From contig JAURQA010000145.1 of the NCBI GenBank assembly GCA_030836345.1, forward strand, positions 1 to 23,207: DNA of 23,207 nucleotides, in the 5' to 3' direction. This DNA comes from Bacteroidota bacterium. Its GTDB lineage: Bacteria; Bacteroidota; Bacteroidia; NS11-12g; UBA955. The notes under the pieces were generated by a model that saw nothing but the letters and a program-made list of their open reading frames with translations, was not told where the DNA came from and made no database searches. Position 1 is the first letter of the stretch. Every line of letters begins with the position of its first letter. This document shows, in pieces, positions 2 through 9,876 of this stretch. The position numbers and the translations under genes were made by a program.

Positions 2-832
2 ATATTCTTCATGTTTGTGTTGGCCGTATCTCTAGGGATTGTAAGCTTGGAAAGTTGTAAAAAGTGCAAGTGCCAAGATCCTGGTAATCCTGATTGCGAG
101 AACTATGATCCTTGCCATGGGAAGTCTGAGGTAAAAGCGACTTTCATAAAAGGGAATCAATGGACTCCAGCCGAAACTTTTTTCGGAACATTTGATTATG
201 TACACGACAAAGATTCCGTTTATAGCAATAGTTCCCGATTTCGATTCTCAGCATTGACACCAAATGCGAAATATACATGGAAACTAGGTGCAGAAACCAT
301 TACTGACAGCACTTTTGTGAGAAGTTTCTCAAATGTTCCTGAAGGCTGGTATGAGGCGCGCCTTGTTGTTGAGTCTGAACCTAACAAGCAATGCTTTCCA
401 GACGATAATGGAAAAGACACTTTGGTTAAAAGATGGTATATGATGCCGAGAAACAAATTTCCTATCATTGGGGCATATAAAGTTCTTTTTGAAGGAGCTA
501 CGGACAGCAGTATAATTCAAGTGAGGCCATGGGAAATCTCTGCAGCAACTCAAACTGGCAATTATAAAGTAATAGACTTTCAATCAGAGTTTGCCATCTG
601 CCTTCTTAATTTCAGAAATGGGAAAGATACACTTACTCATTTCTCTTTTAAAAGAGATGCTCAAATAATAAGTGGCCATTGGATAGGGTTCAATGATAAA
701 CCAAATCGTGGATTTCCTTTTCAGGGTTATGTGCGTTTAGATGGAAATCAGGTGGAGGCAGAATATCAATTTGAAGAATTTAGTCAAACCGAGCCTCGGC
801 TCATAAAATTTAAAGGAAGAAAAATAGAATGA
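2..832 (+). CDS. Lipoprotein-like protein, 5' end beyond window
   Basis: I do not recognise this family. The first in-frame ATG is at 11, but the frame is open to the window edge and reads I-F-F before that Met. A start at 11 would give a signal peptide with no positive charge, so the true start probably lies upstream. The visible N-terminus is a hydrophobic stretch ending in a lipobox-like LESC, followed by a Cys-rich segment (CKKCKCQDPGNPDC) and then about 220 residues of beta-rich, polar sequence. This suggests an exported, membrane-anchored lipoprotein. The stop codon overlaps the start of the next gene (ATGA at 829-832), so the two are probably translationally coupled and may act together at the cell surface. 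No catalytic motif is visible. Confidence 0.7.
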   Translation: MFFMFVLAVSLGIVSLESCKKCKCQDPGNPDCENYDPCHGKSEVKATFIKGNQWTPAETFFGTFDYVHDKDSVYSNSSRFRFSALTPNAKYTWKLGAETITDSTFVRSFSNVPEGWYEARLVVESEPNKQCFPDDNGKDTLVKRWYMMPRNKFPIIGAYKVLFEGATDSSIIQVRPWEISAATQTGNYKVIDFQSEFAICLLNFRNGKDTLTHFSFKRDAQIISGHWIGFNDKPNRGFPFQGYVRLDGNQVEAEYQFEEFSQTEPRLIKFKGRKIE

Positions 833-3768
833 AAAAAATAATAATTTATACAATAACAATTTTACTGGGTGTACATGTTTATGCCCAATGCACGCAGGAC
901 GCATCAACCGATCCCGCAAATCCAGTCAATAATGATTTAACACCTATTATGAAAACTGGCCAAAATACGGTTAACGAGTTTAAAAATACCTTTGATTGGG
1001 GAGCACATTCAAATACCTCATTTCATAGCATTCCGCTAAACCTAGATGCCAATTGGTCATTAGGTTCACATGGAGGATTAATGCATTCACCTTTTAGCAC
1101 TAATATGCCATCGGGGTATTCTTATCTGCACCAAGGAGGGGCTTTACCCGATGATTGTGATTGGCACTGGGAAGATGGCTGGGAGCTGATGTGGACGCAT
1201 TTAGGAAATTACCCAAATGGAGAAGGGGTAGAAACCACCAATCCAAATCGAATTATTGCGGGTCAAAATGGTTTGGCAAACCCCAATACACCATATTTTG
1301 TTTTGTACAATAGATATTCGGGTAAGTTGCGATTTTTTGGGAATATGTTTCAAGAGATAAATGCAACCAATAATGACCATATTCAATTATTTCTACGACA
1401 CGATCCACCAAATGATCAAGCTCCGGTAAGTGGTGTTTTTCGACATGTTTCTGGTTATGATCGTCCCTTAGATCAATCTACTATTAATACATTTATTAGT
1501 AGTAATAACAAAAGTCCAGGGAATAACAATGCCTGGTTTTCCTCCGATTTTCAATTAGGGTTTGATCCCTGTGTCTGTGATAATCCAACCCTCTGGGAAC
1601 TGGAGTATCAACTAATCACACAATGGGATGTTAAACTTTATGGCCGAGAAGTAAATAAAGAACTTCCCGTTAATAAGTTTGATGGTGATTATTTAAGCAA
1701 TACCAGTATTGATGCAACCGGTTCAAGTGGTGGAACATTACTGTACAAGTCTTTTGATGGGTTATACACCAATTATTTGGCTGAAATGGATGCCTACAAC
1801 CAAAAAATGGCTACTTACAATAGACCAGCAAATGCCATATTGAGATCTATCGTCTCTAAAAGTGCAGACCTCTCAACAAAAGCGGCCAATTTTGTTTTAC
1901 CATCAGCGGCGGTAACCAGCTTTGTTTCAGATTTTATGACACCCATTTACCCTCACTTTAGCACACAAAATGCGGAATGGATGGCCAGAGGTATAAAGAA
2001 GGCAGGTGATGCACAACTAGCCAGAGGTTTAGACTTTTTGGTAAAAGAAACCATTAATCCTGATGCACTTACTGAACCAGATAAGCCAACCATGCCTACG
2101 GCAACCTTTGCTGAGTCCAGAATAGGGGGAGATATTGCGAGAAACAACAGAATTGCTTTAACGGGTCTCTACAATCCCGGCAGTTTTAAACCTAATGTTA
2201 ATCAAATAACTCCTTACAATTATCCTTTATGGAATAAACCAGTTGGGTTGTTTGCCATGCTTAGAACTCCACACCTAAAGTTATATCACAACCAAAACGC
2301 CACCGGTGTTTGGGGTAATTTTTCAGATGACTATAGTGGATATAGTAAATGGTTTAATTTTATTCCTGGGGATATAGAGCATGGCCTAGATAACGAATAT
2401 GGTTATATGAGTCAGAAACAACACAGAATACAAAACATCGCTAAGATTTGTGAATACAAGTATGAGCAAGACATCAACTTTAAAATAGGCGAAAAGCTGT
2501 TTTATAAATTCAACGACAATTTAGATTTTGATAAAGATTTAACGAACACAAGGTACAGTATTCAAATTACCCTAGAATCGGAGGCAGGTGATGATTTATA
2601 TTGGGATGAAACGGGATTTGGTTTTAATAAATTTCAAACACTTGATGTAAGCAAATCTAATCTTGAAGTTTTCCGTCATCTTAGAAAGACAGCAGACCAA
2701 AATGAACAAGTAACTTTAGTTACAGAATGGTTAAACATGAAGGATGCCCAAGAGCAAAATTTTGGTGGAAGAATTCGATCTGCTGCTAAATTTCAAGTTC
2801 AAGAAGGGACGGTAACATATGTTAAATTTCACAGTTCCACGAAAGGGGGCATGGTGCATTTAGAGCCAGTTTTTGAGTTTGGTACACCTTGGCCGAATGT
2901 CGTAAATACTTCAGGAGGCCAACTCGTTGTGAAGCCCGAAGTAGTAGATTTTCTTAAATTTAAAATAAAGAAGGTTGTTTTAAAAGTTATGCCGGATATG
3001 TACTTCAAACAAGTTGGAAGCAATGGCGGGAAGGTAAATACCACACAAGTATTTTCTTATTTGTTATTCGACAATGACAAGGGAGTTGACCTTATAGCCT
3101 CTCATGGCCAATGGTTGGATGAAGGCAATAGAAAAAGCCAAGCGCAAAAATACCTTCCGTATACACTGGTTTTAGACAATGAAACCATTACCACGACTTC
3201 TGATTATGTAAATTCAGTTGTGGCTGGAACAATAGTAGTAAATGCTCAGGAGATTGAAGTGAAAAATGGATTAACAGTTCAGCCGGGTTTTGCACTAACC
3301 TTAAATGCGGTGGATAATATTAGTGTTACCAATACTTCAGTTTCTCCAGTAGTTAGTTTTAATATACGAAAGAACTATTACGGATTAGGTCAGATATCTG
3401 AAACTACCCAAGCGGAGGTAGATGCTTTTTGTTCTGGAGGTAATAAGGAATATTCAGCTGATGTAGCCGCCAATTCACCAATAGGTCAAAAGGATACTGA
3501 CCCAATTGATTCAGAAGACTTTGATCAAAGAATTGATGTTTTTCCTAACCCTAGCTCTGGCAAGGTTACATTTAAATTCTTGAAGGGATTTGCAGAAGGA
3601 GCATTTATTCTTACCGATTTAAATGGACGAAAAATTCTGAATGAAAAGCTTTCTTTAGAATTAACGCAAACTTTTGATTTATCTAACTTATCTGATGGTT
3701 TATACATTGTGAAGATAAGTACAGATAATGAGGTTCACACTCAAAAGCTAATTCTGAGAAAGAACTAA
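829..3768 (+). CDS. Large secreted protein with T9SS type A sorting domain
   Basis: This 979-residue protein is predicted to be exported by Sec and then across the outer membrane by the type IX secretion system. It has a signal peptide (MKKIIIYTITILLGVHVYAQ). From about residue 902 to the end it has the T9SS C-terminal domain: VFPNPSSGKV, then LTDLNGRKI, then LSDGLYIVKIS, ending in LILRKN. Just before that, around residues 800-830, the phrase ALTLNAVDN sits in a segment resembling the short beta stretches often found before these tails. I recognise no enzymatic domain in the large central part, which is rich in aromatic residues, Asn and Asp. The start ATG overlaps the upstream lipoprotein stop (ATGA), and a hairpin terminator follows. 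It may be an adhesin, binding protein or unusual enzyme; the sequence does not decide. Confidence 0.85.
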   Translation: MKKIIIYTITILLGVHVYAQCTQDASTDPANPVNNDLTPIMKTGQNTVNEFKNTFDWGAHSNTSFHSIPLNLDANWSLGSHGGLMHSPFSTNMPSGYSYLHQGGALPDDCDWHWEDGWELMWTHLGNYPNGEGVETTNPNRIIAGQNGLANPNTPYFVLYNRYSGKLRFFGNMFQEINATNNDHIQLFLRHDPPNDQAPVSGVFRHVSGYDRPLDQSTINTFISSNNKSPGNNNAWFSSDFQLGFDPCVCDNPTLWELEYQLITQWDVKLYGREVNKELPVNKFDGDYLSNTSIDATGSSGGTLLYKSFDGLYTNYLAEMDAYNQKMATYNRPANAILRSIVSKSADLSTKAANFVLPSAAVTSFVSDFMTPIYPHFSTQNAEWMARGIKKAGDAQLARGLDFLVKETINPDALTEPDKPTMPTATFAESRIGGDIARNNRIALTGLYNPGSFKPNVNQITPYNYPLWNKPVGLFAMLRTPHLKLYHNQNATGVWGNFSDDYSGYSKWFNFIPGDIEHGLDNEYGYMSQKQHRIQNIAKICEYKYEQDINFKIGEKLFYKFNDNLDFDKDLTNTRYSIQITLESEAGDDLYWDETGFGFNKFQTLDVSKSNLEVFRHLRKTADQNEQVTLVTEWLNMKDAQEQNFGGRIRSAAKFQVQEGTVTYVKFHSSTKGGMVHLEPVFEFGTPWPNVVNTSGGQLVVKPEVVDFLKFKIKKVVLKVMPDMYFKQVGSNGGKVNTTQVFSYLLFDNDKGVDLIASHGQWLDEGNRKSQAQKYLPYTLVLDNETITTTSDYVNSVVAGTIVVNAQEIEVKNGLTVQPGFALTLNAVDNISVTNTSVSPVVSFNIRKNYYGLGQISETTQAEVDAFCSGGNKEYSADVAANSPIGQKDTDPIDSEDFDQRIDVFPNPSSGKVTFKFLKGFAEGAFILTDLNGRKILNEKLSLELTQTFDLSNLSDGLYIVKISTDNEVHTQKLILRKN

Positions 3769-5724: not shown

Positions 5725-5756
5725 CTGTACAAATTAAAAAAATACGCTTAAATTTG
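5725..5756 (+). promoter_or_regulatory. Putative promoter of the cobalamin operon
   Basis: A TAnnTTTG box (TAAATTTG) lies at 5749-5756. A TTTTCTG stretch ending at 5727 lies about 21 bases upstream, a reasonable position for the -33 element of Bacteroidota promoters. Transcription would begin just before the riboswitch. The -33 match is weak. Confidence 0.55.
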
Positions 5757-5774
5757 TTTCGTTAGTTTTTCAAA

Positions 5775-5950
5775 TAGTCTTAGCCGATTAGGAGAAAATT
5801 AAAAGGGAACTCCAGTATCATATTCTGGGACTGTACCCGCAGCTGTACTCTCAAGCAAAATAATTTTGCAAGGGTTTCGTAAACCACTGACATATCGCTA
5901 ATGTCGGGAAGGTGAAATCTTACAGAGAAAAGTCAGAAGACCTACTAACA
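5775..5950 (+). ncRNA. Cobalamin (AdoCbl-type) riboswitch
   Basis: The conserved core of the RF00174 family is readable in order. It begins with AAAAGGGAACTCCAGT (5801-5816), then GGGACTGTACCCGCAGCTGTA (in 5828-5848), a variable hairpin, ACCACTGAC (near 5883) and CGGGAAGGTG (5905-5914). The B12 box AGTCAGAAGACCTACT is at 5931-5946. This RNA binds a cobalamin and typically lowers expression of transport or synthesis genes when the vitamin is plentiful. The next gene is a TonB-dependent receptor, the classic target. About 90 bases separate the B12 box from the receptor start, with no strong terminator hairpin. Control may therefore be translational, which I infer rather than see. Exact ends are approximate. 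Confidence 0.93.
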
Positions 5951-6043
5951 AAAAGGAAATGCTTTCGGGAAGAAAAGTGAGCCTGTAGATCTTAATAGCG
6001 AGAACTCAGACTTGTATCATTTGGCCCGGAAATATTGAATTAT

Positions 6044-7825
6044 ATGCTTTTGGCCTTGATATATATAGCACTTACCCCAAAACCCAGTGACAGTGTCGCT
6101 GTAATGGATAGCGTGCACATGTTTTCACATCCGCATTACATGGCCCACAACGGAAGCAGAGTCGTTCAATTAAACGAAGGGAACACATTGAATGAGCGCC
6201 TATCATTTTCCCCTTACTTTACAAAGAACTATGGTCCCAGCGGAATTAGCACTTTGGGTTTGCGAGGAACTCAAGCCTCTCAAACACAAATTATTTGGCA
6301 TGGAATACCATTAAATAATCCAATGTTAGGTGAGACTGACCTTCAAACTTTAACGCTTAACCCAGCAGACCATTTGTCTATTAACCAAAGTGGAAACTCT
6401 TCTGTATACGGCTCTGGAGCCGTTGGTGGCTCCCTAATCATTCATAACGAACCCACATTTAACGAGGATGGGTATAAGCAAGAGTTGGATTTAAGTATGG
6501 GCAATTTTGGGTATTCTCGATTTTTAGGCCAATCTACCTATTCAACAAAAAAAATGAATCTTTCATTCGGGTTGAATAAATCACGAAGTACAAATAATTA
6601 CCAGGTATTTATTGATGAACAAAAAAAGGAATTAAAACATGCAGAATTAAACCGATTAAATCTGAACATCCTTGCTGCCTTTAAACTCAAAAATAAATCT
6701 CAAATAAAAACCATTTTAGAATGGAACACTACGAACCGGAATTTACCGGATTTTTTCACGAATGTGGGTACGGACAAACTTGAAATAAAGAGCTTAAGGT
6801 GGATGACTGAGGGGTTATTTAACCATGAAAAGATTAGTCATGGGTTTAATGTGGGATATATTCATGAGGACTACCTTTTTATAAGCCAAGCAAATCCAGA
6901 GGGAAGTAAAAGTAGTAGTGATTTATTGGTAGCTAAATATTGGGGAAAGAAACAGTTTTACAAGGTCTTTCGGCTAGACCTGATTACAGAAATGCAATAC
7001 CAGAGTGGAACGACTCAGTCATACTCATCAACACAAGAACAGATCTTACCATCTACGGTGTTATCCCTGAATTATGAAAAGAAAGGACTTATTATTGGAA
7101 CTCAGAATAGATTCGATTTTAAAGCTTCCAAACGCATTAGTAAGCTTTATTTTGATTACTCTTATAAGAACTTAAGGGTATATTCAAATATTGGAAACGC
7201 CTTTCGAAGACCCACCTTAAACCAACTTTATTGGGGCAGTCCAATTGCCCGAAACCTGCAAGTGGAGGAAGGAATTTTTCGAGAAATTGGCGGTGCTATT
7301 GCACTTAAAAAACTAACTGTAGATGTTTCTCTTTATTCTCGAGCTTTGTCCAATGAAATTATTTGGGTTCCGGATGGCAACTCAAGTAAGGCCATTAATT
7401 TAAATAGGACCAGAGCCCTTGGGCACAGTTCAACCCTGAACTATCGATTTAGAATTAAGACGACTCCGATTACCCTTATGGGTCAATATGAATTTGTGCA
7501 AGCAGAAACATTAAGAAAAGAATCTAACGAATGGGAAAACACTTTATTTATCCCAAAGCACAGTTATTTAATTGGCTTAAAAACCACACTTAAAAATATA
7601 ACTATAGGTATTAGAAATCGGTTTACAAGTTACAGATATACAAATTTTGACTCTGATGACTACTCAGAGGGATTTTTCCTCTGGAGCGGTTACATTAACT
7701 ATACTCATAAAGATTTAAGTGTACGTCTGACCACAAACAACGCTTTAAATACGAGGTATTACATACAACCTGCTCAGCAAATGCCAATGAGGCAATATCA
7801 ATTAGGATTAAATTTAACACTATAA
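6044..7825 (+). CDS. btuB: BtuB-like TonB-dependent receptor (cobalamin uptake)
   Basis: This is a predicted outer-membrane beta-barrel receptor that imports a cobamide using TonB energy. A plug domain covers about residues 40-135, with STLGLRGTQASQTQIIWHG, GIPLNNPMLG and SVYGSGAVGGSLIIHNEP. A 22-strand-like barrel with alternating aromatic residues follows, ending in a typical hydrophobic last strand (QYQLGLNLTL). At about 593 residues it is close to enterobacterial BtuB and lacks the extra N-terminal CarboxypepD_reg-like domain of many Bacteroidota receptors. The cobalamin specificity comes from the riboswitch upstream, not from the barrel. The N-terminus is odd: the frame opens at 5999, the choices are TTG 6035 or ATG 6044, and both give a short signal peptide without a positive charge. 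DSVAVMDSV is a possible Ton box. It is separated by one base from the next gene. Confidence 0.88.
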   Translation: MLLALIYIALTPKPSDSVAVMDSVHMFSHPHYMAHNGSRVVQLNEGNTLNERLSFSPYFTKNYGPSGISTLGLRGTQASQTQIIWHGIPLNNPMLGETDLQTLTLNPADHLSINQSGNSSVYGSGAVGGSLIIHNEPTFNEDGYKQELDLSMGNFGYSRFLGQSTYSTKKMNLSFGLNKSRSTNNYQVFIDEQKKELKHAELNRLNLNILAAFKLKNKSQIKTILEWNTTNRNLPDFFTNVGTDKLEIKSLRWMTEGLFNHEKISHGFNVGYIHEDYLFISQANPEGSKSSSDLLVAKYWGKKQFYKVFRLDLITEMQYQSGTTQSYSSTQEQILPSTVLSLNYEKKGLIIGTQNRFDFKASKRISKLYFDYSYKNLRVYSNIGNAFRRPTLNQLYWGSPIARNLQVEEGIFREIGGAIALKKLTVDVSLYSRALSNEIIWVPDGNSSKAINLNRTRALGHSSTLNYRFRIKTTPITLMGQYEFVQAETLRKESNEWENTLFIPKHSYLIGLKTTLKNITIGIRNRFTSYRYTNFDSDDYSEGFFLWSGYINYTHKDLSVRLTTNNALNTRYYIQPAQQMPMRQYQLGLNLTL

Positions 7826-7826
7826 A

Positions 7827-8801
7827 ATGAATATAAAATTTACACTATCAGCCATAGCAATGGCAACTTCAATCGCTTTAAGCGCACAAACATTTACTTT
7901 GGAGAGCATTTTGGTGCCCGCAGAAAAGGTAGCTAAGGGATTAGATGGGTCGACCATGAATACCGAGCTAGATAATGGGGTTACTTTAAATCTCCCTGTA
8001 AAATGGGATACCAGTTTTGGAGGATATTGGGCAAATGGCTGGGCTATCTCCCAAAAATATGATAGCACTCGAGAAGCTAGCGATGCGACGAAACACCAAT
8101 TTAGCGCTATTACTTACAAAGGGTACATGGCTTCAAATACATTTGCCATTGGCCAGAGAGGGGCATATGCAAGCCTAAATAATGGAAGCAATAGAAACTT
8201 TGAAACCATCCAAATAACTAATAGTACTTATACTACTAATTCTATGTTAAAAGGAGATCGATTCGCCAAACCTTTCGGGGGTACAACGGGCAACGATGAA
8301 GATAGCTTGGTTCTTATCATTGACTGTTTTGATAAAACCAATAGTCAATTGCTTAAAACCGTAAGAGTAATTTTAGCAGATTTTAGATTTACTGATAACT
8401 CAAAGGATTTTATTCTTGATACATGGAAAGAAGTTAAAGTAACTGGTGATTCACTCGTTTTTAATATGATAAGTAGTGATAATAACATGTTTGGGATGGT
8501 AACTCCTGGCTTTTACGCAGTAGATCAATTTAGTACTTCAGGAAAAGCAAGTGTTTTAAGTAATAGAATAATTCAATCGGAAGTATTTCCAAATCCAAGT
8601 AAGGGAGAAATTACCATTCGAAGCCAAGCAAATATAAATCAAGTAATCATTCGCGATTTAAATGGGAAATTGATATTTACTACTACGGGAACTCAAGAAA
8701 AGAGCATGACTTTGAACCTGGCCTCTTTAGCTAATGGCATATACTTTATCGAAATAGCTACACCCAATGGATCAGGAATACAAAAACTAATAAAAAAATA
8801 A
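7827..8801 (+). CDS. DUF4465-like secreted protein with T9SS tail
   Basis: This 324-residue protein has a signal peptide (MNIKFTLSAIAMATSIALSAQ), a globular domain at about residues 25-240 and a T9SS type A tail at about 251-324 (VFPNPSKGEI, IRDLNGKLIF, LANGIYFIEIA, QKLIKK). The globular domain resembles DUF4465: VKWDTSFGGYWANGWAISQKY is followed by YKGYMASNTFAIG and later GTTGNDEDSLVLIIDCFD. The fold expected for such domains is a carbohydrate-binding-like beta sandwich. Its place between a BtuB-like receptor and a BtuG-like propeller, under a cobalamin riboswitch, points to a surface cobamide-binding or receptor-accessory role. That role is inference. It starts one base after the receptor stop, and its own stop directly abuts the next start. 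Confidence 0.8.
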   Translation: MNIKFTLSAIAMATSIALSAQTFTLESILVPAEKVAKGLDGSTMNTELDNGVTLNLPVKWDTSFGGYWANGWAISQKYDSTREASDATKHQFSAITYKGYMASNTFAIGQRGAYASLNNGSNRNFETIQITNSTYTTNSMLKGDRFAKPFGGTTGNDEDSLVLIIDCFDKTNSQLLKTVRVILADFRFTDNSKDFILDTWKEVKVTGDSLVFNMISSDNNMFGMVTPGFYAVDQFSTSGKASVLSNRIIQSEVFPNPSKGEITIRSQANINQVIIRDLNGKLIFTTTGTQEKSMTLNLASLANGIYFIEIATPNGSGIQKLIKK

Positions 8802-9806
8802 GTGCCAAAAATCCTTCGCAACATAACAGTTTGTATACTTTTACTATTTTTGGGTTCTTGTAAACCTAATGGTGAGAAAAAAAGCAATGCTGTTAGTGCT
8901 GGAAGTAAACTAATTATATGTTGCGAAGGAAATTTTGGTTGGGGAAATTCAGATTTTGATATTTATAATCTAAGAGATAATGAGCTCAACTTAAAGGTGT
9001 ATAAGGCATTGAACAATGCTTCGCTAGGCGACGTTTTGCAATCTGCCAGTATATGGAATGGATATCTCTACTTGGTAGTAAATAATTCTGGAAAAATTGT
9101 AGCTCTTGATACCGTTAATTATATTAAGCAAGACGTTATTTTTGGGTTTAATTCGCCGAGGTATATGCAGGCTATAACGAACCAAAAAGCATTGGTAACA
9201 GATTTATATGCCAATAAAATATACCTTATTGATCGGACGGAGGGTATAGAACAAACTTTCCCGGTAAAAGGGTTTTGTGAGGGCATGGCTGCATCCGATG
9301 ATGAGATTGCCATTGCATGTACAAAAGGTACCGTTTACTTTTTTAACAAGAGCCGGATGCATCTTAGCGATTCGGTTGAGTTAGAAAAAGGCAGTAAGAA
9401 GGTAATTCATATAGGCAACTCATTTTATACTATGTGCTCGAAAGGGTCAAAAAGTATAATGTACGAAATTCAGAATAAGCAAGCCACTGTTACATGGGAT
9501 ACTTCTATCCATGAAAATCAATATGTAAGTTTTGCATTTAACAAGATTAAAAATGAGTGGCTTTTTATGCAGAGCAATAAGCTCTATAGCATGAGTCGAA
9601 ATTTTAAGAACCTGAAGGTTGAATACTCAAATCCCTCAGCTAATTTCTATTCCATTAGCGTGAATCCTACGAATGGTGAAGTTTATATATCAAATGCCAA
9701 AGATTATGTGAGCGCGGGTGAAATCATTCGGCTATCTTCGGAATATCAATTTATGCACTCGGCTGCAACAGGAATTATTCCTGGATTTACTCTTTTGATT
9801 GAATAA
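8802..9806 (+). CDS. btuG: BtuG-like beta-propeller lipoprotein
   Basis: This is a 334-residue predicted lipoprotein with signal peptide and lipobox LFLGSC (lipidated Cys20). The mature part resembles the YncE/DUF5074 propeller family to which the Bacteroides cobalamin-capture protein BtuG belongs. Seen in order are GNFGWGNSDFDIYN, LGDVLQSASIWNGYLYLVVN, SGKIVALD, SPRYMQAITNQKALVTDLY and repeated blade-like segments to the end. In Bacteroides, BtuG sits on BtuB and binds B12 extremely tightly; the same job here is inferred from fold and operon. There is no obvious surface-export signal after Cys20 (KPNGEKK). The only available start is GTG at 8802, directly after the upstream TAA and in the same frame. 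A strong terminator follows. Identity as BtuG rather than another propeller lipoprotein is likely but unproved. Confidence 0.75.
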   Translation: MPKILRNITVCILLLFLGSCKPNGEKKSNAVSAGSKLIICCEGNFGWGNSDFDIYNLRDNELNLKVYKALNNASLGDVLQSASIWNGYLYLVVNNSGKIVALDTVNYIKQDVIFGFNSPRYMQAITNQKALVTDLYANKIYLIDRTEGIEQTFPVKGFCEGMAASDDEIAIACTKGTVYFFNKSRMHLSDSVELEKGSKKVIHIGNSFYTMCSKGSKSIMYEIQNKQATVTWDTSIHENQYVSFAFNKIKNEWLFMQSNKLYSMSRNFKNLKVEYSNPSANFYSISVNPTNGEVYISNAKDYVSAGEIIRLSSEYQFMHSAATGIIPGFTLLIE

Positions 9807-9818
9807 AGACTAAATGAT

Positions 9819-9848
9819 AAAGCTCTGCCTTTCGGCAGAGCTTTTTTA
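9819..9848 (+). terminator. Rho-independent terminator, possibly bidirectional
   Basis: The perfect stem AGCTCTGCC (9821-9829) and GGCAGAGCT (9834-9842) has a TTTC loop and a T run through 9847. It ends the cobalamin operon on the plus strand. The flanking A and T bases extend the stem, and on the other strand it could also stop recA transcription, although the T run there is poor. Confidence 0.92.
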
Positions 9849-9876
9849 TCAAAACCTCAAAAAAAACATTGAGTTC

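Follow-up and report, generated by a model that had tools for sequence, protein, structure and literature searches.

A conserved cobalamin riboswitch-led operon of BtuB-like, T9SS-tailed BtuJ-type (DUF4465) and BtuG-like proteins in a Bacteroidota genome

Microbes contest cobamides, and the surface-capture studies that we found concern gut Bacteroides, apart from a survey of the DUF4465 family. The locus described here raises the question of what a protein bearing a C-terminal sorting tail of the type IX secretion system (T9SS) does between genes for a BtuB-like transporter and a BtuG-like lipoprotein, behind a cobalamin riboswitch. The locus lies in contig C101 of a 1.77 Mb genome that is 67% complete and divided among 300 contigs, from an uncultured Bacteroidia bacterium (the DUF4465 protein of the locus is 97% identical to one recorded under 'Bacteroidia bacterium'); this contig, 23,207 nucleotides long, is the whole stretch of DNA that was analysed and is called the window below. 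The original prediction had described a riboswitch followed by three tightly packed genes and a terminator, and this description was accurate; the RF00174 match, the open reading frames, the domains and the fold all agree with it. The features are the following.

5746..5963, + strand: cobalamin riboswitch aptamer (RF00174), 82 bits (gathering score 31.5), E 4.3e-19, matched over the whole model (1-189)
5964..6034, + strand: leader from aptamer to btuB, 71 bases, with a hairpin TTCGGG...CCCGGAA near the start codon
6035..7825, + strand: BtuB-like TonB-dependent transporter, 596 aa, TTG start (in-frame ATG at 6044), from PF07715 and solved relatives
7827..8801, + strand: BtuJ-type DUF4465 protein, 324 aa, with a signal peptide (by eye), a jelly-roll at about 17-240 and a T9SS type A tail at about 249-324
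8583..8792, + strand: T9SS C-terminal sorting domain of the BtuJ-type protein (PF18962, residues 253-322)
8802..9806, + strand: BtuG-like beta-propeller lipoprotein, 334 aa, GTG start, lipobox LGSC, from the 8bmx_D match and the lipobox pattern
9820..9847, + strand: intrinsic-terminator-like hairpin, stem GCTCTGCC/GGCAGAGC, loop TTTC, then six T

The three open reading frames behind the riboswitch are separated by gaps of 1 and 0 bases. That they make up a single operon, led by the riboswitch and encoding outer-membrane or surface proteins, was borne out, and the arrangement is conserved in relatives, as described below; a chance grouping of riboswitch and genes is ruled out by the E value of the RF00174 match together with this recurrence. 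The match is the only one in the incomplete assembly of this genome. A cobalamin riboswitch has been described before a TonB-dependent transporter gene of Flavobacterium psychrophilum (PMC9723704). The leader (5964-6046) is predicted to fold at -17.1 kcal/mol and its counterpart in a relative of the same genus, G039, at -17.2 kcal/mol; leader folds differ among relatives, for which start codons were assigned mechanically. Since a hairpin lies near the start codon and no U-run terminator was seen in the window leader, our guess is that the riboswitch output is translational control. At the other end of the operon, the region 9805-9850 holds a GC-rich hairpin followed by a T run, with a predicted fold of -20.6 kcal/mol. 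A generic terminator scan of the window did not return the 9820..9847 hairpin, probably because the stem takes in part of the T run. The next gene to the 3' side, by reading of the open reading frame list, is recA, on the opposite strand. The same list, read by eye, contains no btuF-, btuC- or btuD-like frame within the window, as had been predicted; the 67%-complete genome encodes a single FecCD-type permease, located on a different contig, along with domains of B12-dependent enzymes (MM-CoA mutase and B12-binding).

The first gene carries the plug domain PF07715 (34.9 bits, cut-off 23.9), and its PDB relatives are chains of 8p97 and 8p98 ('Vitamin B12 transporter BtuB') and of 8bmx, with E values from 1.2e-18 to 6.8e-18. 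Its score against the BtuB equivalog TIGR01779 is 51.4 bits, below the cut-off of 599.7 bits, and it is therefore named BtuB-like only, from its solved relatives and its context. The third gene matched 8bmx_D (E 2.8e-26), which is named a YncE family protein and which we take to be a BtuG, and 8blw_B (E 4.9e-6), from an entry titled 'BtuB1 with lipoprotein BtuG1'; because its PF16819 score is slightly below the cut-off (26.2 vs 27.2 bits), it is labelled BtuG-like. Of the eight residues that follow the lipobox cysteine (CKPNGEKK...), a single one is acidic, so that the canonical acidic signal for surface export is weak. By our own sequence pattern, used in place of SignalP, a lipobox was found in 64 of 74 BtuG-like frames, and nine of the ten misses have, by eye, a cysteine past the hydrophobic stretch. 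Genes 1 and 3 thus have sequence relatives in the BtuB-BtuG complexes of gut Bacteroides (8bmx, 8p97, 8p98, 8blw) and share their operon partnership, although the BtuB chains of those complexes are longer (693-713 aa against 596 aa) and the window operon adds a T9SS-tailed protein.

This added protein, the product of the middle gene, matched the DUF4465 model PF14717 at 106.2 bits (cut-off 25), and the DUF4465 alignment profile A4 gave E 5.8e-41 against D5EK51 and E 3.5e-35 against BtuJ1. Its predicted fold is the augmented beta-jellyroll of BtuJ1. The tail scored 52.9 bits against PF18962 (cut-off 27) and there is no lipobox, so that a lipoprotein (gene 3) and a T9SS-tailed protein are indeed mixed in one operon. 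The window holds a second T9SS type A tail, on a 979-aa protein encoded at 829-3768. The host appears to possess a T9SS, as judged from a SprA gene (TIGR04189, 2103 bits, cut-off 200) and from 53 T9SS-tail matches in its genome, 48 of them over the curated cut-off; with its own tail and this SprA gene, the DUF4465 protein would be exported by the T9SS. All 64 full-length DUF4465 frames of the surveyed loci (three of 67, cut at the 3' end, were left out) are tailed according to an HMM built here from the window tail and its relatives, and one of the 64 also fits the lipobox pattern. The role of the middle protein had been drawn from the operon alone; this has been superseded, because DUF4465 proteins have been demonstrated to bind B12 (PMC12751083, PMC13398666). 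Eight members of this cobalamin-binding family, one of them from Fluviicola taffensis, are reported to bind cobalamin tightly (PMC13398666); BtuJ1 and BtuJ2 are named as DUF4465 proteins, and DUF4465 genes often adjoin genes for TonB barrels, plugs and PF16819 propellers (PMC13398666, PMC12751083).

We read the gene order at 100 of 103 riboswitch places (99 and the window), and at one DUF4465 locus, in G011, that lacks a riboswitch match; three places (G086, G027 and G020) were left out, contig ends being close by. RF00174 matches occur in 97 of the 108 genomes of the window's order. DUF4465 occurs in 77 of these 108, as against 11 (9 over the cut-off) in an even sample of 392 genomes from the phylum, requested at a completeness of at least 90% and with the window's own genome included. 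With B for BtuB, J for DUF4465, G for BtuG, and X and K for two further families, the 63 loci of the window's family read BJG in 32 (window included), BJXG in 4, BKXG in 2 and BG in 10; the other 15 are 11 with B only and one empty before the contig end, two BJ loci that run into a contig end, and G069. The 37 riboswitch loci of the sister family read BJJXG in 17 (one with a second G match), BXG in 6, BG in 2 and JJ in 7, with 5 cut off; J here consists of two domains within a single protein, with open frames mostly of 528-593 aa. DUF4465 lies between btuB and btuG in 36 of the 48 loci of the window's family, and in 17 of the 25 of the sister family, that show both, denominators which leave out 15 of 63 and 12 of 37 loci that are truncated or that lack btuG or the btuB-btuG pair.

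The predicted order is accordingly conserved in relatives, but 10 of the 48 loci, from two genera (nine and one), are BG loci without DUF4465, and the G069 locus (L043:2608-4619), which is not cut off, has riboswitch-btuB with neither DUF4465 nor btuG, followed by what appear by eye to be btuF/btuC-like genes. On these grounds the DUF4465 gene is common but dispensable in the window's family. In one btuB-btuG locus lacking it (L055:3430-4503), the next gene is, by eye, BtuF-type-lipoprotein-like. A different arrangement was seen in the seven genomes of genus g16 (L050, L054, L066, L068, L078, L079, L080), where JJ stands behind a riboswitch of its own without btuB or btuG, and a second riboswitch leads btuB-X-btuG in six of the seven; the gene next to JJ, on the same strand, reads as ABC transporter-like. 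Of the genomic evidence, these riboswitch-JJ operons speak most strongly for J as an independent member of the cobamide regulon.

The nearest described system is operon 1 of B. thetaiotaomicron (btuK1-btuK2-btuH1-btuB1-btuGH-btuJ1), which, like the window, combines a cobalamin riboswitch, a BtuB, a BtuG propeller and a DUF4465 BtuJ, and which likewise has no btuFCD in Table 2 of PMC12751083. The two differ in that the window places DUF4465 between btuB and btuG and has no btuH or btuK, and in that the BtuJ described for B. thetaiotaomicron is a vesicle-enriched lipoprotein, whereas the window's BtuJ-type protein has a T9SS tail and no lipobox (PMC12751083). The share of DUF4465 proteins reported as lipoproteins itself varies, from more than 70% predicted (PMC13398666) to 33% (PMC12751083). 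To speak of a different surface apparatus, as the original prediction did, was too strong, because the operon keeps to the known BtuB/BtuG/BtuJ set and differs in the delivery signal of one member. We take IPR026444 to denote the sorting domain of the T9SS and IPR013424 to denote that of PEP-CTERM proteins. IPR026444 is found on 229 of 824 DUF4465 (IPR027828) members (PMC12751083, PMC13398666), and PMC12751083 refers to 'C-terminal extracellular targeting motifs', the words 'T9SS' and 'type IX' being absent from its main text. Tails of T9SS type on BtuJ-like proteins are already in print as a count, given in the parts of these sources cited here without an operon or an export mechanism. In short, the operon is real and conserved, its parts are of known kinds, and T9SS delivery of BtuJ is a variant partly documented as that count.

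We consider it very probable that the window operon is a cobalamin-controlled cobamide capture operon, btuB-btuJ-btuG, in which a T9SS-exported BtuJ-type protein passes cobamide to BtuG-BtuB. When cobamide is scarce, the riboswitch would permit expression of the three genes. BtuB would reside in the outer membrane, capped by the BtuG lipoprotein, which would take up cobamide; the BtuJ-type protein would cross the inner membrane by its signal peptide and the outer membrane by the T9SS, with loss of the tail, and would then bind cobamide outside the cell and pass it to BtuG-BtuB for TonB-driven import. In relatives, the BtuH-like family X perhaps also binds external cobamide. Published work on relatives has shown that DUF4465 proteins bind B12 (PMC13398666, PMC12751083), that BtuB and BtuG form a complex, and that control in B. 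thetaiotaomicron is riboswitch-linked (PMC12751083); for the window we infer that the BtuJ-type protein binds B12, is exported, may stay anchored and hands its ligand over, and likewise in which direction and by which mode the riboswitch acts. Points against the capture-operon reading are a phenylalanine at position 229 (see below), the absence of the gene from 10 of 48 loci and from G069, the weak acidic signal of the BtuG-like protein, and the lack of an inner-membrane importer gene in the operon.

We give somewhat less than an even chance to the possibility that the BtuJ-type protein is shed into the medium once its tail has been cleaved, and there carries cobamide in the diffusible manner of a siderophore instead of capturing it at the cell. 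T9SS type A cargo may be either released or anchored. Two further observations would fit such a carrier: bacterial extracellular vesicles (BEVs) with BtuJ1 or BtuJ2 of B. thetaiotaomicron carry cobalamin away from the producing cell and deliver it elsewhere (PMC12751083), and seven sister-family genomes keep the gene in a separate riboswitch operon, apart from btuB-btuG. The packing of the window gene between btuB and btuG, however, fits a co-made surface partner, as the capture-operon reading would have it.

The predicted binding pocket bears on whether this partner would bind B12 at all. In the alignment with BtuJ1, Tyr146 of the DE-helix corresponds to window Tyr135 (tyrosine in 44 of 47 aligned rows), and Tyr245 of the HI-loop corresponds to window Phe229, so that the hallmark tyrosine is not kept; it is retained in 97% of DUF4465 homologs (PMC13398666). 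Every one of the 47 rows has an aromatic residue at position 229 (26 Tyr, 21 Phe), and this residue is Phe in 32 of the 38 matched domains of the window's family, the same-genus G039 having Tyr. A sequence pattern applied to the sister family caught 41 domains, 32 with Tyr and 9 with Phe, although three of the 41 (RSPYFN or similar) probably represent another site and more than ten domains escaped the pattern. Trp68 is kept in 43 of 47 rows, and in both the window protein and that of G039 the NTP motif has V where N is expected. The HI-loop tyrosine is frequent in the family (IPR027828) and not part of its Pfam definition; the filing of the window protein under DUF4465 therefore rests on the domain score and predicted fold, which it shares with the family. 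The change from Tyr to Phe in much of the clade weakens, but does not overturn, the predicted B12 binding, and we have lowered our claim of binding because of Phe229.

It is improbable that the DUF4465 domain of this family has lost strong binding or has changed its ligand, the new one being for instance a different corrinoid or a breakdown product: the Phe in most family domains and the V in the NTP motif would accord with such a change, but Trp68, Tyr135 and the aromatic character of position 229 are kept and the riboswitch linkage persists. Far less probable still is that the middle gene plays no part in taking up cobamide and is a bystander, as the 10 complete loci without it might suggest; we reject this on account of the riboswitch-DUF4465 operons without btuB or btuG in seven genomes, and the published B12 binding of the family and the keeping of the gene order across many genera also speak against it.

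The most interesting outcome is that T9SS-tailed BtuJ and BtuH-like proteins are frequent in cobamide loci, of which we found no description in the open-access literature. The BtuH-like proteins form family X, which is named in neither Pfam nor NCBIfam and of which the window's own genome has a member.

G000:C53 (L180:4779-5492), - strand: family X, T9SS-tailed, BtuH-like, no Pfam name (alignments A1 and A3)

The predicted fold of family X is that of the BtuH C-terminal domain. Its profile matched a BtuGH-type fusion (E 3.3e-4) and a BtuH2-type protein (E 0.027) that itself matches 7biz at E 1.3e-206; hhalign gave a probability of 60% over 40 columns, or 35% with a smaller alignment, and since only 39-40 columns are aligned the link to BtuH rests mainly on the fold. 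BtuH (7biz) has a lipoprotein signal where family X has a T9SS tail, and identity in the alignment with it is 15%; B12 binding by family X is a prediction. PDB sequence searches with family X and K proteins returned T9SS tails and weak matches, with no BtuH or BtuJ relative among them; in Pfam and NCBIfam they matched the tail model, DUF3244 below its cut-off and, over part of the tail, further T9SS models, and two of three X proteins also had a sub-cut-off match to the LIC_13355 lipoprotein model.

J and X occur together in 73 of the 108 genomes of the order, with J only in 4, X only in 8 and neither in 23 (Fisher p 5e-13, uncorrected for relatedness). Family X was also found in at least 40 of the 392 phylum-sample genomes (E up to 1e-10), a lower bound given that at most five candidates per genome were scored, and with many of the matches partial. 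In many other Bacteroidota it adjoins btuB-btuG-like genes or lies behind a cobalamin riboswitch; the figure of 54 of 80 from the family X scan, in which the best 80 matches were kept, is biased upwards because the seed (A1) came from 11 riboswitch loci and some matches (L200, L203, L278) are of the same order. At 11 of the 80 named X loci we saw no riboswitch and no btuB/btuG-like gene.

The T9SS is best known for delivering enzymes, adhesins and virulence factors. We regard as evenly balanced the proposal that T9SS-bearing Bacteroidota deliver cobamide-capture proteins by a second branch, in which BtuJ-type and BtuH-like X proteins are exported as T9SS cargo and are maybe shed as protein cobalophores, whereas gut Bacteroides show these accessory B12-binding domains as lipoproteins. 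If environmental Bacteroidota do export binding domains in this way, vitamin capture would be a physiological output of the T9SS, and whether the exported binders are tethered or shed as public goods would be a testable question. Family X also provides a large unnamed protein set whose proposed function is concrete enough to be tested.

Family K was seen at the following places.

L069:2437-3621; L042:5402-6538 (- strand); L223:5128-6930; L230:2768-4363: family K, T9SS-tailed, repeats of about 130 aa by reading, no Pfam name

At two loci of the order it stands in the place of DUF4465, and L223 shows it as a fusion with family X. In L278, from the window's genus, family X occurs without an RF00174 match; a TPP riboswitch (L278:5455-5543, - strand, 62.3 bits) adjoins it on the opposite strand.
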